Assembly: GCA_947476295.1 (NCBI GenBank)
Contig: CANJQC010000037.1
Location: 1 to 42,580 of the forward strand
Source of the DNA: Planctomycetaceae bacterium
Lineage (GTDB): Bacteria > Planctomycetota > Planctomycetia > Planctomycetales > Planctomycetaceae
DNA length: 42,580 nucleotides
Direction of reading: 5' to 3'
Positions 26,288 to 42,436 of this stretch are shown in pieces. The translations under genes and the position numbers were made by a program. Within the stretch, counting starts at the first letter, position 1, and each line of letters begins with the position of its first letter. Below the pieces are notes generated by a model that worked only from the letters and a program-made list of their open reading frames with translations, did not search any database and had not been told where the DNA came from.

Positions 26288-29200
26288 TTAGCGAATCGGC
26301 AGCAGCACAGGTTCTGCAGGTGTCTGCGCACAGGCGGGAGGCAGACTGCGGGGGCCGCCAGCGGATTCGCTGGGTGTCCACAGATACTGCCAATGAGTCC
26401 ATTCCGTCAGTGATTCATAGAAGAGTACGGCTTCGCGGTCGGTTGGAAAAATCCCGGCGGCCATTGCTTCAACGCTCGGTAATGGTCGCACTGCGCCTTT
26501 GCGGGACAAGTCGACCGTGAGTTCCTTATCGAAGTGGCCATTCGGCCAGATGGCCAGCCCAAGTGAGGTGATATCATACGGATGGACGTGGATAAAATTT
26601 GTTTCCAGTTGCTCGCGGACCATGTCGATCCCGGACTTTCGATAAAATCCCTGCAGCGCGTTCTGAAGAGACTTCAGTTGATCGGGTCCCGCAAACCTCA
26701 GCCAGCCTGATTCCGGCACTGATGCAGCCACCCAGCCGCTCTGTTCCTGAAAAAGCAACCGCACGGGCGGTGTCCCCAGGCGACTGCATTCCAGTTCCAC
26801 GCAGAAACTATTTGACGCCGCATGAATATGTCCACATCGTAAACCGGTATCCTTCCAGACCAGGCATGATTTGAGCAGACTGATGAGTTCTCGTTCGACA
26901 AAACTGCGAATGGCTTTTTCGATATGTTCCAATTGATCGCCAGCAGCCCGTCGAGCGCTGAACCGGCGGAATGATGCTTCCTGATGTTCCAGTCGCCGCA
27001 ATCGGCGAAACAGTTTTGGCAATGTGCCGGAGTGGAAACCTGGACGAAGCAATCGAGCGACCGTTTCTCCATGACTGCCGACAGGCGCAGGGGTGAGTTG
27101 CTGCTGGCGATTCGCCTGATAGAGCCGCCAGTTTTCCTTCAACTCCCACACAACGAACCCAAAAATGCCCGGCAGAAAGAAGATATTGAAACCAGTCACT
27201 ATGCCGGCCAGCCAGCTTCCCATATACGGCTCAAACAACTTGAACATCCATTCGCTCAGATCTTTGATAAAGGGGAAAAAGATCTTGTGTGCGACCGTCA
27301 CGACAGGAAAGTGCTTGACCGGATGCAGCGTTGGTTCGATCAGCAGATTGACATAAATCCGAATCAGGAACGAGACGAACGACCAGATCACTCCCAGAAA
27401 TGCCTTTGCCACAATCGACAACCAGCTCTCGTCACTGTGAAACCGCAGCCATTCATCGACGGCATACAGGAAGCGTTCGATAAAATTCAGCACCTGTCGG
27501 AACGTGTCGATGATCCAGTCAATTACCGCCATCACGACGCGCGCACGCAACTTGTACCATGTGTTCCCGACCCATTCTGCCGTCAGTTCCTGCGTGTCCT
27601 GTCCTAGGCGTGAATTGAGCGCCATGCTCAACAGCATCGTGATACTCCCTGTCCACCACCAGCTTAGTGATGCACCAATGAGCAACCATGGAACTGCTTG
27701 TGTGGCAACCAGCGACACGACGCTCGGCATCAATACAAGTCGCCGGATACGGACGAACGTCCGATTTCGCAGCAGCAACTGCATCAAAGGGAGTCGCAGA
27801 ATCTTCTGTGGCAAATCGATCAGAATCTTCCGCGTCAGTCGCCAGACCGATGAGACTGCTCGAAAGAACCAGCGTCGAAACTTTACGACATGAATGAGAA
27901 ACATGAGCAGAAAGCCGATGACCATAACCCATGACAGCATTTCCAGCTGTCGTCCGACAATCTGGTCCACAGCGTCGTCTGCGTCACGTGGCGTCACAGT
28001 GATGACTTCGCGTAGTTCTTCGACCGCCTCTTGTTCGTTCGAATTCACCCCCGCGACGGATTCATCCAGCGCGTCAATCTCGGAGACCAGTTCGATATTT
28101 TCTACTTTTTCAGGCACCGCGTTCCCAGTTACCAGCTCAGCGCTCAGACCAGTGGAATCCGTTTGATCAGCGACGCTTGCTGAAGTCAAAGGTTCAGCAC
28201 TCGCTTTCGCAATCCTTCGATTGAATAAATCAATGACGTGACTGACGCCTTCCACAATCACCACTGCCCCGCCGAACGGGATGATCAGAAACTGAGTTGC
28301 AAATCGGCCAACATGCGTACCGAAGAACATGGAACTCGTGATCTGCAGCCAGCGCAGGTAGAATTCGCCGCGACGATAGACGCCGTCCATTGCCACATCC
28401 AGGCGATCGTCGGCGCGCAACAGGTGGTCGCCTCGGTAGAGTTCCGTGAGTTCGCTCAGGTCCGGCAGCTTGAGATCATTCTTACTGATCGCATCACGCA
28501 GGTAACCCATCGTCAGGTAACCACGGCTGGCGATGCAGTCCAGAGAATCTTCAATGAGCTTGTCGAATGCGACCTGTTCCGGCACGCTGGCTGGCTTGAG
28601 TTTAACGTCCAGCAGCGTCTGACTCAGGGCAGGTCGCATCCGTGTTCGCATCTGCTCTTCAGCAAGCCGTGCGGCGGCGTGCAGCAATTGTGTCAGCCGT
28701 TCACGTTCAATTCCGCTCAATCGAACATAGACCAGTCGCGACGCCGCACTGGCGAGATGTTTAGCCATCATCACTTCGCGCAGACTTGTCAGCGGACGCC
28801 GCAGTGGACGCTTGCCGCGACTAACGATCCACTTGACCATGTCAACCGTGTAGGTGACTCGTTCATTATCCAGACAGACTTTCTGCAGATCGAAGAGCAG
28901 ACGTTTTTCTGAATTCCAAAATCCATGCACGGAGTTCGTTGCAAGCTCCCACAGCGACGAGTGCCAGCTTTCTGTATCTTCTTCACGAAACGCAATCGCG
29001 CGCCGCAGGCGCTCGGTCAGGAATTGAATATCGGAACGTGCTTTTTCGATGGCAGTCGTACGCTTGTCTGGTGAGGTCGCTCGCTGCGACGCCATAATCG
29101 CGTTGACGATCGCTGCAATCGTATTGCCGCGTTCGTTGTGGCGATCACGACGTCGCAACAGACGAATGTAGGCACGATCAGATTGAGTGATCCCGGCTCC

Positions 29201-29950
29201 ATGAGTCCAGTTGCTTCGAGTACTCACAAGCGACTCTTCGTCCCGAGCAACGTGTGGCGTCAAATCGGGATCGGTCGCTCCGTATAATTTTGTTCGAGCA
29301 AAGATTTCATCGGCATTGATATCACGAGACAACGCCTGCTCAAATTGCGCCCGACCCACCAGCGATGGAAACCAGACAGCCATGAGATCCGGCTCAAATC
29401 GCTGCAGTTCACAGTAGATCGCCACAAACTCACGCCACGCTTCGATGCGGGAAACGGGATCGATCAATCGATGTTCACTCCGCAGCACGAAATGAGCCTC
29501 ATCAAACTCGACCTGACCGATTTCTGCGATTCGTTCCTGCACATCGGATCGCTTGACTTTCAACTGGCACTCTAAAATTAACTCACGGTCGATCTGCGCG
29601 TGAAACAGACGTCGCCAGACCTGCTGCAGAAGCTCCTGCAACGGCCAGTGTTCCAGTTCACCGTCTTCCGGCTGACTGATGAGCAGGCACCTGTCCGGAA
29701 GATCAGTGAACGTCGTCAGTCCAAGTTCATCGGGATGCGTTAAGTGTCGGACATCAATGGCAGAAACGACCTGGCTCTCCGCATGCGGAATCGAAGCCGC
29801 CAGTTTGGCGAACCCGAACTGTTCGCGAATCACGCGCCGAATGACGCGGCCTTCGACAAGATAGGCCGACGCATCCGCACGCGACAATGCTCGTCGCAGC
29901 TCCTCAATTCGAGAAATTCCATCGCCCCGTGACACCGCATCTCCTTTCAA
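26288..29950 (-). CDS. Very large multi-domain membrane protein of unknown function
   Basis: This 1220-residue protein has a soluble first half of about 540 residues: charged, helical, Arg/Glu-rich, without recognisable catalytic motifs. Membrane segments lie at about 545-575, 668-690, 740-780, 842-873 and 909-934. An acidic linker (about 600-665, VENIELVSEIDALDESVAG) sits between the first two. The last 280 residues are soluble again (FHSGTLPKLFRRLRRLEHQE; RLLFQEQSGWVAA). The frame is uninterrupted and the start has no closer alternative. I do not recognise a known family, although the size and layout recall planctomycete-specific membrane proteins. The stop lies near the ISL3 remnant, and a 930-base gene-free stretch lies upstream. 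Confidence 0.75.
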   Translation of the reverse strand: MKGDAVSRGDGISRIEELRRALSRADASAYLVEGRVIRRVIREQFGFAKLAASIPHAESQVVSAIDVRHLTHPDELGLTTFTDLPDRCLLISQPEDGELEHWPLQELLQQVWRRLFHAQIDRELILECQLKVKRSDVQERIAEIGQVEFDEAHFVLRSEHRLIDPVSRIEAWREFVAIYCELQRFEPDLMAVWFPSLVGRAQFEQALSRDINADEIFARTKLYGATDPDLTPHVARDEESLVSTRSNWTHGAGITQSDRAYIRLLRRRDRHNERGNTIAAIVNAIMASQRATSPDKRTTAIEKARSDIQFLTERLRRAIAFREEDTESWHSSLWELATNSVHGFWNSEKRLLFDLQKVCLDNERVTYTVDMVKWIVSRGKRPLRRPLTSLREVMMAKHLASAASRLVYVRLSGIERERLTQLLHAAARLAEEQMRTRMRPALSQTLLDVKLKPASVPEQVAFDKLIEDSLDCIASRGYLTMGYLRDAISKNDLKLPDLSELTELYRGDHLLRADDRLDVAMDGVYRRGEFYLRWLQITSSMFFGTHVGRFATQFLIIPFGGAVVIVEGVSHVIDLFNRRIAKASAEPLTSASVADQTDSTGLSAELVTGNAVPEKVENIELVSEIDALDESVAGVNSNEQEAVEELREVITVTPRDADDAVDQIVGRQLEMLSWVMVIGFLLMFLIHVVKFRRWFFRAVSSVWRLTRKILIDLPQKILRLPLMQLLLRNRTFVRIRRLVLMPSVVSLVATQAVPWLLIGASLSWWWTGSITMLLSMALNSRLGQDTQELTAEWVGNTWYKLRARVVMAVIDWIIDTFRQVLNFIERFLYAVDEWLRFHSDESWLSIVAKAFLGVIWSFVSFLIRIYVNLLIEPTLHPVKHFPVVTVAHKIFFPFIKDLSEWMFKLFEPYMGSWLAGIVTGFNIFFLPGIFGFVVWELKENWRLYQANRQQQLTPAPVGSHGETVARLLRPGFHSGTLPKLFRRLRRLEHQEASFRRFSARRAAGDQLEHIEKAIRSFVERELISLLKSCLVWKDTGLRCGHIHAASNSFCVELECSRLGTPPVRLLFQEQSGWVAASVPESGWLRFAGPDQLKSLQNALQGFYRKSGIDMVREQLETNFIHVHPYDITSLGLAIWPNGHFDKELTVDLSRKGAVRPLPSVEAMAAGIFPTDREAVLFYESLTEWTHWQYLWTPSESAGGPRSLPPACAQTPAEPVLLPIR

Positions 29951-30005: not shown

Positions 30006-30252
30006 GTAACCGTTCACGCTACTGCGGAGCTTGCCTCCGTAGGGCGATAATCAAGACCAGAACAAGCAGAGCCCCCTGACGCCACGATGCAGCTTGCCTG
30101 CATCGAGCGATGATTATGGGGAGGTGTATTCCCAATGATCATCATCCTACCCGGGCAAGCCGGGCAGTGATGTGCTTCACTTTCGTTCGTTATTCTGGTG
30201 CTGATCAAGGCTCGACGGGGACAAGCCCGCGTCGTGGCCCGTGAACGGTTAC
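30006..30252. mobile_element. MITE-like element A with 13-bp terminal inverted repeats
   Basis: GTAACCGTTCACG (30006-30018) and its exact complement at 30240-30252 bound 247 bp without a gene. Inside are hairpins sharing a loop: CTGCGGAG-CTTGC-CTCCGTAG (30022-30042), CGATGCAG-CTTGC-CTGCATCG (about 30086-30106), and CCCGG-GCAAG-CCGGG (about 30150-30165, the loop in reverse complement). A fourth stem with ACAAG in the loop precedes the right end. Non-autonomous element or REP cluster is the best reading; no target duplication is evident. Confidence 0.65.
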
Positions 30253-30312
30253 CTGCGGTGAATCCCCAGACGAGGCAAATTCATCCCGTCCACAAACCAG
30301 TTGATGTTGCGC
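30253..30312. repeat. 60-bp direct repeat, copy 1
   Basis: This 60-bp segment (CTGCGGTGAATC ... GTTGATGTTGCGC) recurs at 30628-30687 with about six differences. It begins directly after element A and ends directly before the TTA that flanks element B. One minus-strand frame is open in both copies (NINWFVDGMNLPRLGIHR here), but the differences fall on first and second codon positions, which argues against protein-level selection. Confidence 0.8.
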
Positions 30313-30315
30313 TTA

Positions 30316-30599
30316 GAACTTGTCCAGGAACAAATTCGTCGTGATGGGATTTCAGCCCAACGCTTTCGCGACCATCAATGACGTGTTGGGGCGGAAATTT
30401 GGAACACTAATCTTCGCTGATTGACGCTAATGCAGAGGCTGTAGAGTCAGGATGAAGTTCACAAAACCATGCCTTTCTCGTCTGAGATTAGTGGTTTTCA
30501 GCGGAGATTCGTGTTCATAAAACTTCCAATCTTTCCTCTCGCTTCCCACGCCGTGTTTTCCCATCGCAACAAAACACGGTGTTGTTCCTGGACAAGTTC
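30316..30599. mobile_element. MITE-like element B with 18-bp terminal inverted repeats and TTA flanks
   Basis: GAACTTGTCCAGGAACAA (30316-30333) has its exact reverse complement at 30582-30599. Both ends are flanked by TTA (30313-30315 and 30600-30602), which looks like a 3-bp target duplication of the TNA type known in the IS5 family. The arms remain partly complementary further inside (GTGATGGGA against its partner near 30570). The 284-bp interior has no transposase gene but carries a second inverted pair (ACTAATCT / AGATTAGT). A non-autonomous element mobilised in trans is the natural reading. Confidence 0.75.
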
Positions 30600-30627
30600 T
30601 TACCACCGGCTAATTTCTGAAACCGCT

Positions 30628-30687
30628 CTGCGGTGAATCGCAACACGAGGCAAATTCATCCGGTCCACAAGCCAGTTGATGTTGCGC
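30628..30687. repeat. 60-bp direct repeat, copy 2
   Basis: This is the partner of the segment at 30253-30312, on the far side of element B and separated from its right end by 28 bases. It lies directly upstream of the operator-like palindromes of the toxin gene. Confidence 0.8.
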
Positions 30688-30728
30688 ACTGCATTTGTGG
30701 TTGAACCAGAATTGACATCTCCGCACTC

Positions 30729-30770
30729 GACCGCAAAACTGCGGTCAAGTTTCACCGCCGTTTTGCGGTC
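30729..30770 (+). promoter_or_regulatory. Two operator-like palindromes before a TATACT box
   Basis: GACCGCAAAACTGCGGTC (30729-30746) is a near-perfect palindrome, a 7-bp stem around AAAC. A second, inverted copy (ACCGCCGTTTTGCGGTC) lies at 30754-30770. Ten bases later comes TATACT (30781-30786), a good -10 element; no good -35 is visible. The arrangement suggests an autoregulatory operator/promoter for the PIN-toxin operon starting about 80 bases downstream. Confidence 0.5.
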
Positions 30771-30880
30771 GAATATCTGTTATACTCCGCGCGGCTTGGA
30801 ATGAGATTTCTTGATTGACCTTTCACTCGCTTAAGGCGTAGAATGAAAGTATGGCTGAATGAGTTTACATCGAGACCACG

Positions 30881-31330
30881 GTGGTAAGCTACCTGACGGC
30901 ACGACCTAACCGCGACGTCGTGATTGCCGGCCATCAGCAGATCACTCACGAATGGTGGGATACACGGCGGGAAAGCTATGAACTGTGCGTATCGCAGTTG
31001 GTTCGTAAAGAAGCCGGGGCGGGTGATTTTCAAGCTGCTCAGGAACGGCTTGAAGTGTTGAAAACCATGACACTGTTGGCGACCTCGGTCGAAGCGTTGG
31101 ATTTGGCGAAGGAATTGATCCAGGCTGGCGCGCTGCCCTCGAAGGCTGCGGACGATGCGTTACATATCGCCGTCGCTGCCATGAACGGGATTCCTTACTT
31201 GTTAACGTGGAATTGCCGACATCTGGCGAATGCCACGATGCGACCCGTGATCGAGAGCGTTTGTACGGGAAAGGGCGTCAAGGCCCCGATCATCTGCACG
31301 CCCGAGGAACTTTTGGAGGCAAAGTTATGA
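30881..31330 (+). CDS. PIN-domain ribonuclease (VapC-like toxin), start region possibly frameshifted
   Basis: From GTG 30881 this gives 149 residues with PIN-domain features: SYLTARPNRD near the start, SQLVRKEAGAGD with the second acidic residue, and DDALHIAVAAMNGIPYLLTWNCRHLANA with the third acidic site and the WNCRH motif of this subfamily. PIN toxins cut RNA and are neutralised by a partner protein. In-frame sequence before the GTG reads VYIETT, a normal family N-terminus holding the first acidic residue. A TGA closes that frame just upstream, while an ATG one base out of frame sits there (ATGAGTTTAC). A one-base insertion would explain it. As it stands, the protein may lack the first acidic residue. 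The stop overlaps the next ATG (ATGA). Confidence 0.7.
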   Translation: MVSYLTARPNRDVVIAGHQQITHEWWDTRRESYELCVSQLVRKEAGAGDFQAAQERLEVLKTMTLLATSVEALDLAKELIQAGALPSKAADDALHIAVAAMNGIPYLLTWNCRHLANATMRPVIESVCTGKGVKAPIICTPEELLEAKL

Positions 31331-41093: not shown

Positions 41094-41167
41094 GTCTCGG
41101 TAGCTCAATTGGATAGAGCGTCGGCCTCCGAAGCCGAAGGTTGCAGGTTCGACCCCCGCCCGGGACA
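41094..41167 (+). tRNA. tRNA-Arg (anticodon CCG)
   Basis: The cloverleaf can be drawn by hand. The acceptor stem is GTCTCGG / CCGGGAC with one G-U pair. The D-arm is GCTC-AATTGGATA-GAGC. The anticodon stem is TCGGC / GCCGA around the loop CTCCGAA, which gives anticodon CCG. The T-arm is GCAGG-TTCGACC-CCCGC with one A-C mismatch, and the discriminator is A. The CCA end is not encoded. It reads the CGG arginine codon. The gene lies next to an integrase and is a likely integration target. Confidence 0.93.
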
Positions 41168-41260: not shown

Positions 41261-42436
41261 CTACTTCGTTTTCTTCCGTGTTTTCTGCATCATCGCCGCC
41301 ATCTTCTCAACAGCTTCGTTTTCAGCATTTTGCAGCAAATGGCTGTACGTGTTCGCCGTTGTAGCGAAGTCCCTGTGACCGAGCCGTTTCTGTATCACCT
41401 TCAGATCCACGCCCGCCGCTAGCATCAGACTGGCCTGCGTATGTCGCAGGTCATGGAAGACGAATGTTTCAGCGATGCCGACTTTTTCACGGATCGGATA
41501 CCAGACGTTGCGGTCAAAATTTGATCCACGGAGATAGCCACCACGGGTATTTGCGAACACATTCGGCACCTCAGCAGGATCGAATCCTTCATCCTGGGCT
41601 TTTTTTAGGCGACTCCGCAGGGCTTCAACGGCCACCGGATCGAGCGAAACGACTGTTTTCCCTGCCGTCGTCTTCGGTTCCTTCAGCTTTAATCCACGGA
41701 GTTCCTGCAATGTTTTGCGAACCACCAAGACACCTTCGTCCAGATTGACAGCATTCCAGTGGAGTGCGAACAACTCGCCTTTCCGCAGTCCAGTCATCGC
41801 TCCCAATATCATCACGTCCCCGAGTCGATGCTCTTGACAGGCTTCAAAAAGCGCATGACAGACTCCTGGTTCCAGTGGGATGACTTCCTTACGTGCCAGT
41901 TTTGGTTTCACCAGGACATTGCACGGATTGAACGGAATGAGCCGCAGTTTGACGGCTCGATTAAGTGCGACGTTTAATACCTTGATTGAGCGGTGTCGCA
42001 TGTTCGCCGTGAATTTCTTCCGTTTCAGAGTCGCCTGCCACGCGAGCAGTTGTTCGCCGCCCAGCTTTGTCAGCTTTATGTGCCCGATGAACGGCGTGAC
42101 GTACCTTCGGACCGCACCTTCGGACCGCACCTTCGTATTCCTGGTACGTCTTATCCTCGCTGTTGACTTCGACATCATTGTCGAGCCATCGTTGTAGATA
42201 CGCTGTGACCGTATCCGTTCCTACGATCGACTGGGCCCCGTGCTTCCGTTGCTGCTTCAAGTTGTCCAGCTTTTCGTTAACTTCCTTTTGTGTCTTTCCG
42301 TAGACAACTTTTCGAATTCGTTTGCCGTTAACATCAAATCCGAGGCTTACTGAACCCACCCAGCGTCTGGCCTGGTCAAAACGGTGTATATTTCGGGTGT
42401 TTTTGCAGTTTCAGTATTGTTTAGGAGTAAAAGCAT
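41261..42436 (-). pseudogene. Tyrosine recombinase (phage-type integrase), frameshifted
   Basis: Three minus-strand frames read in sequence as one integrase of about 388 residues. The N-terminus (AKTPEIYTVLTRPD) is in the first. The second begins at WVGSVSLGFDVNGKRIRKVV and runs through the arm-type domain to TYQEYEGAVRR. The third gives the SAM-like core domain and a complete catalytic domain. The catalytic residues are all present: Arg in TGLRKGEL, His and Arg in HDLRHTQAS, His in LGHRDFATT, Tyr in NTYSHL. The second shift is caused exactly by a 13-bp tandem duplication at 42103-42128. The first, near 42362, needs one missing base in a GC-rich run. The gene points toward tRNA-Arg, the usual orientation for island integrases. 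Confidence 0.8.
42103..42135. repeat. 13-bp tandem duplication inside the integrase gene
   Basis: ACCTTCGGACCGC occurs at 42103-42115 and 42116-42128, followed by a third partial copy (ACCTTCG, 42129-42135). Removing one 13-bp unit joins YEGAVRR to YVTPFIGHI in frame, as expected for the family. This is therefore a recent slippage event and not an assembly of unrelated parts. Confidence 0.9.

Follow-up and report, generated by a model that had tools for sequence, protein, structure and literature searches.

The window, by which we mean the whole 42,580-nt stretch of planctomycete DNA analysed here, contains a short mobile-element-like stretch of 284 bp at 30316-30599 (target duplication excluded), which we read as a MITE that was probably moved by a transposase of the IS5/IS1031 type. 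We put the probability of this reading at about 0.74. The preliminary description had left the type of the element unnamed; judged from its ends and target site, it can be called IS5/IS1031-like with fair confidence. In mechanistic terms, the element would contribute end sequences only, and a DDE transposase acting in trans, which we infer to be of the IS5 family and most likely of its IS1031 group, would cut at the terminal inverted repeats (TIRs). The excised element would then be joined into a TTA or TAA (TWA) target with a 3-bp stagger, and repair of that stagger would leave the TTA duplicated. Just inside its TIR, the right arm retains sequence of the wider family, CACCGTGTTTTG. The parts of the element are as follows.

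30313..30315, no strand: target duplication, left copy, TTA; the same triplet lies at the right flank, as identical 3-bp direct flanks do in 12 of 22 family pairs
30316..30333, plus strand: left TIR, 18 bp, exact complement of the right end
30334..30548, no strand: core, by sequence comparison a repeat module that also occurs TIR-less elsewhere in the same genome (contig C71)
30548..30582, no strand: hairpin inside the right arm; its TIR-adjoining CACCGTGTTTTG is common to G216 elements (L107, L081/L023)
30582..30599, minus strand: right TIR, 18 bp, exact complement of the left end
30600..30602, no strand: target duplication, right copy, TTA, which the minus strand reads as the TAA that ends a 59-codon open frame

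Structure and insertion site of the window element

The preliminary description had claimed perfect 18-bp TIRs, TTA on both flanks and 284 bp without a transposase, and each of these claims is borne out. Specifically, GAACTTGTCCAGGAACAA occurs at 30316-30333 (+) and 30582-30599 (-) with 0 mismatches, the TTA copies lie at 30313-30315 and 30600-30602, and no open reading frame of at least 80 aa overlaps the element. An apparent length of 19 bp for the inverted repeat arises solely from the outer A/T, which is supplied by the two TTA copies. Among 100 dinucleotide-preserving shuffles of the window, matches to the TIR at up to 3 mismatches averaged 0.01, and two matches were found in none. As no DDE transposase is encoded, the element is not itself an IS5 element but at most a derivative of one. 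Within the core, GGAACACTAATCTTCGCTGATTGACGCTAAT lies at 30401-30431, and 30484-30516 holds a similar stretch that runs the opposite way.

With respect to the insertion site, TAA directly precedes 18 of 69 TIR-like matches, and eight of these 18 close frames of at least 150 codons (two of which run past the locus), as compared with 57 of the 780 TAA triplets that these loci contain. This excess at stop codons may reflect selection rather than targeting, since the background count includes TAA inside genes, where insertion is harmful. The joined flanks, representing the empty site, gave no whole-site match in 21 genomes. The right flank is a repeat in G001, G004, G005 and G012, and two copies in G001 (L140 and L148) carry an uninterrupted GC-TTA-CCACCGG; as the left side matches over a few bases only, they lend weak support to an unfilled site. 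The element is also bracketed by a 71-bp direct repeat, 86% identical, at 30253-30323 and 30628-30698; on the minus strand, each copy is readable as RNINWxVDxMNLPRxxIHRR.

Several other features of the window were recorded alongside the element. A possible second short element lies at 30006-30252, with perfect 13-bp inverted ends (GTAACCGTTCACG) that are 221 bp apart and small hairpins between them. This 13-mer was found in no examined locus outside the window's own contig, and two matches to it at up to 2 mismatches arose in 25 of 100 shuffles. A near-perfect 22-bp hairpin (91%, 2-nt loop) at 30727-30772 lies just upstream of a PIN-domain-like ORF at 30881-31330 that scores below the Pfam cut-off, and the 1220-aa ORF at 26288-29950 (-) has no Pfam match at E<=0.001. 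Toward the end of the window, a tRNA-Arg (CCG) gene at 41094-41167 adjoins a phage-type integrase gene at 41261-42178 (-), a pair that possibly marks the boundary of an integrated element.

Related elements and their target duplications

A search of the element's own genome (G000; 5.99 Mb in 252 contigs) with the 18-mer at up to 2 mismatches yielded no second copy and no second pair of ends, the only matches being the two ends of the window element itself; further matches at 3 mismatches are single and spread over seven other contigs. The preliminary description had named such a situation, a sole copy with no transposase gene bearing such ends, as grounds for abandoning a mobile element. Over the ground covered, this is literally what was found, and the mobile reading is still supported, because the existence of duplication-flanked copies in other genomes outweighs both the single copy and the missing partner. 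Membership in a MITE population thus rests on the wider family, as G000 holds one copy and the genomes G216 and G271 hold many.

Relatives of the interior are found closer to home. The best in G000, at C71:9895-10114, is 84% identical over query positions 16-236 of 290, and reading of the surrounding sequence revealed no recognisable TIRs; shorter pieces lie on contigs C89, C14 and C15. A search with the whole element found matches in 4 of 40 genomes (G000 itself, G012, G013 and G020). The best match outside G000, L010 in G012 (same genus), is 88% identical across query positions 3-126, which comprise one TIR and the initial part of the core, so TIR and core co-occur in a second species.

At up to 2 mismatches, the 18-mer is present in 182 of the 397 genomes of the class. 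A reversed control pattern also matches many genomes, and single end matches therefore mean little. Certain genomes nevertheless stand out against this control: 6+12 end matches versus 1+0 in G216, 4+5 versus 0 in G271, and 7+13 versus 1+0 in G297, a member of another family in which a variant end makes up part of the count. The exact 18-mer was present in 12 stretches of the genome contig collection, two of which (L023 and L029, from one assembly) are short palindromic elements; the other 10 are single matches, each read over about 180 bases, as is one match on a viral contig. No transposase was recognised near single TIR matches when ORFs around 24 loci were judged by eye from their printed starts, without a family search. 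Five stretches of G297 (L101-L105) contain repeats that resemble one another over lengths from several hundred bp up to about 1.1 kb, with a TIR-like start, GGACTCGTCCAGGAACAACACC, and internal repeats; they were considered as full-length elements and set aside, a second TIR and a transposase not being recognised.

Evidence of mobility comes from identical copies at two sites and from the flanks. In G297, an identical 158-bp element occupies two sites (L097 and L100) with a TTA duplication at each, and the surroundings differ at 140 of 200 flanking bases on the side compared. In G216, the element at L107 is reduced to 43 bp of bare ends, and CACCGTGTTTTG, just inside the TIR in the right arm of the window element, matches it at 28 of 30 positions. 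Kinship between the two therefore extends beyond the 18 bp. Pairing of ends 36-320 bp apart across all loci, with identical elements counted once, gave 22 distinct pairs; the L023/L081 element is missing from this count owing to a one-base gap in one end. Identical 3-bp direct flanks were observed in 12 of the 22, the triplet being TTA or TAA in 10, CAA in one and AAA in one. When right flanks were shuffled, a mean of 5.2 pairs matched, and 12 or more was reached in 24 of 100,000 trials; flank matches of other lengths were infrequent (2 bases, n=3; 4 bases, n=1; 5 bases, n=0). In the remaining 10 pairs, which include L070, probably paired by chance, the direct flanks are unmatched: eight simply differ, and two (the first pair of L107, and L131) have an inverted arrangement, with TTA to the left of the element and TAA to its right. 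These direct flanks and the identical two-site element accordingly support the earlier proposal that the element is non-autonomous, has TIRs and is flanked by a TTA duplication. No name for the MITE family was found in the literature searched (open-licence PMC).

Likeness to IS5-type elements and competing explanations

In terms of the enzyme involved, the TWA duplication and the ends, beginning GAACTTGTCCA, are consistent with the IS5 family and, within it, the IS1031 group. Elements of this group insert at TNA and generate a 3-bp repeat, and the ends of one member, ISLrh, are GAACCTGTCTAGTATCT (PMC12016507). The window element resembles this group, as exemplified by ISLrh, in a TNA-type 3-bp duplication (TTA/TTA in the window; TTA or TAA in the 10 pairs above), in ends starting GAAC(C/T)TGTC and, presumably, in DDE chemistry; it differs in having no transposase gene and in an inner TIR unlike that of ISLrh or of the IS5-type ends found here. 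Comparable elements exist in the same family and class. Four elements of about 0.9 kb with PF13340 (DUF4096 plus DDE) transposases and ends starting GAA or GAG are flanked by TAA/TAA (L117, L206) or TTA/TTA (L209, L220), and the proteins of L209 (231 bits) and L117 (243 bits) exceed the curated cut-off of NF033580 transpos_IS5_3. Other IS5-type elements, such as L236, have unmatched flanks on the two sides.

The similarity extends into the ends themselves. The L209 end, GAACCTATCCGAAAACC, has 12 of 17 bases in common with the family TIR, a score that 6 of 20,000 TIR shuffles reach, and the L239 end, GAGCCTATCCCAGAACC, also agrees at 12 of 17 (1 of 20,000 shuffles). When thirteen ends of the L209-like group, mostly GA(A/G)CCTATCC(G/C)A(A/G)AACC, are compared with the TIR GAACTTGTCCAAGAACA, 9-12 of 17 positions are identical; the value of 12 is attained by at least one end of L209, L220 (scored in the shuffle comparison by the better of its two ends), L226, L236 and L239, and L167 reaches 10. 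Ends of other IS5-type groups, with a free offset, score 6-9 (7-8 for L208, 8 for L166, 6 for L215), so the likeness of the ends is a modest one. With the first four bases removed, L209 agrees at 8 of 13 positions, which 221 of 20,000 shuffles reach.

The preliminary description had also suggested looking for a full-length insertion sequence with the same ends, and here the search came back empty. Transposases of three kinds were examined (PF13340, PF13359 and relatives of the L209 protein), comprising the PF13340 and PF13359 loci of the same 8 genomes, 30 loci and 20 further places among the matches listed for 170 genomes of the family (106 matching), and 30 loci among the matches listed for 397 genomes (54 matching). 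Over all 255 loci of the analysis, these included, no transposase gene had ends beginning GAACTTGTCC on each side, and the nearest ends are those alike at up to 12 of 17 positions. Single 10-base matches to the family end are present at some of the loci, and many of the IS5-type loci showed no recognisable pair of ends whatsoever. Pairs of ends 600-2500 bp apart (up to 4 mismatches each) gave three entries, two of which are one site, and their flanks never match.

This missing partner would fit a MITE moved by a DDE transposase of some non-IS5 family that also makes a 3-bp TWA duplication, an explanation we consider unlikely: the MITE family has its TWA duplication in common with the IS5_3-type elements of the same class, as well as GAAC/GAGC ends that include TATCC/TGTCC, and both traits link it to ISLrh too (PMC12016507). 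It is more doubtful still that the element travelled as single-stranded DNA, mobilised by a REP-associated tyrosine transposase (RAYT, or a long-TIR 'TIRYT'). REPs have been reported in Planctomycetes, and some RAYT-like genes are flanked by REP-unrelated TIRs (PMC3733652). Moreover, when the end matches bearing any of ten flank triplets are tabulated, a GTAG with G, C or A as its next base is found no more than 57 bases from the end in every row of G254 (2/2), G359 (3/3), G396 (1/1) and G140 (2/2) and, for G271, in 4 of 9 rows, although these are counts of a short motif without a chance control. The same motif is missing from 15 of 15 G216 rows and 5 of 5 G297 rows that have the same ends, and the direct 3-bp repeats that flank 12 of the 22 pairs point away from such an enzyme; IS200/IS605-type transposases are not known to produce target duplications. 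With GTAG-REP/REPIN systems and their RAYTs the family does share the GTAG-tagged palindromes of many cores in the genera g41 and g34, but neither the window ends (GAAC...) nor a 3-bp duplication is a feature of REPs, and the window core has a single GTAG in its middle and no GTAG-tagged hairpin at its borders.

An immobile element, retained as a strong hairpin that acts as a terminator or stabilises RNA at the ends of genes, is the least probable of the explanations, and we regard it as very unlikely. It would account for the folding of the 284 nt as RNA into one long hairpin (-113.7 kcal/mol, a value without a shuffle control) and for the frequency with which TAA-flanked TIR matches end long frames. 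Stop-codon positions are also expected, however, if in-gene insertions are lost by selection, and both the 3-bp direct flanks and the occurrence of an identical element at separate sites argue against immobility. An IS5/IS1031-type MITE also has precedents of form among the bacterial MITEs RUP, NEMIS, ERIC and Nezha, which are named as background in PMC3733652 and are similar in size (70-300 bp), TIRs, lack of coding capacity and frequent gene adjacency. They differ in that the hosts named for them in the part of that source drawn on here are non-planctomycete, and in that the cores of the present family vary by genome within constant ends.

Variable cores within shared ends

The palindromic cores of the family vary between genomes, while the ends stay alike. 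Beyond the GTAG tags, GCGTGAGCG is found in 8 of the 15 G216 rows, and the five rows of G297 have neither GCGTGAGCG nor GTAG (again without a chance control). The core of the window element appears to be an unrelated repeat carried as cargo: the part corresponding to GGAACACTAATCTTCGCTGATTGACGCTAAT has four matches on contig C15, flanking a nuclease-like GxxExxY gene on both sides. A regular expression for the GxxExxY motif gave no match; the gene was recognised by eye and confirmed by HMM, with 122.8 bits for GxxExxY (TIGR04256) and 130.9 bits for PDDEXK_3 (PF13366). It lies at L006:1631-2026 (-), between repeat copies of about 33 bp that are close to GGAACACTAATCTTCGCTGATTGACGCTAAT, and gene and repeats may belong together.

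One tentative interpretation, which we hold to be possible though rather less than probable, is that an IS5-like TIR pair serves as a reusable shell that repeatedly acquires unrelated palindromic cores and moves them, often exactly at TAA stops. The cores in question would be GTAG palindromes (g41, g34), the GCGTGAGCG palindrome (G216), other palindromes (G271, G297) and, in the window, the repeat of the GxxExxY locus. Core exchange by nested insertion of REP-like units would be our guess as to how this comes about.

The family of MITEs described here occurs in two planctomycete families (f1, f3), and a likely type of enzyme can now be proposed for it. As a MITE, the window element is of an ordinary kind; it is the interchangeable cores that merit following. 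If the reusable-shell interpretation is true, a DDE-type system spreads palindromes that are otherwise credited to tyrosine transposases, and if the pattern of shell and core holds, REP-like palindromes would have a second route between genome sites and to the ends of genes.
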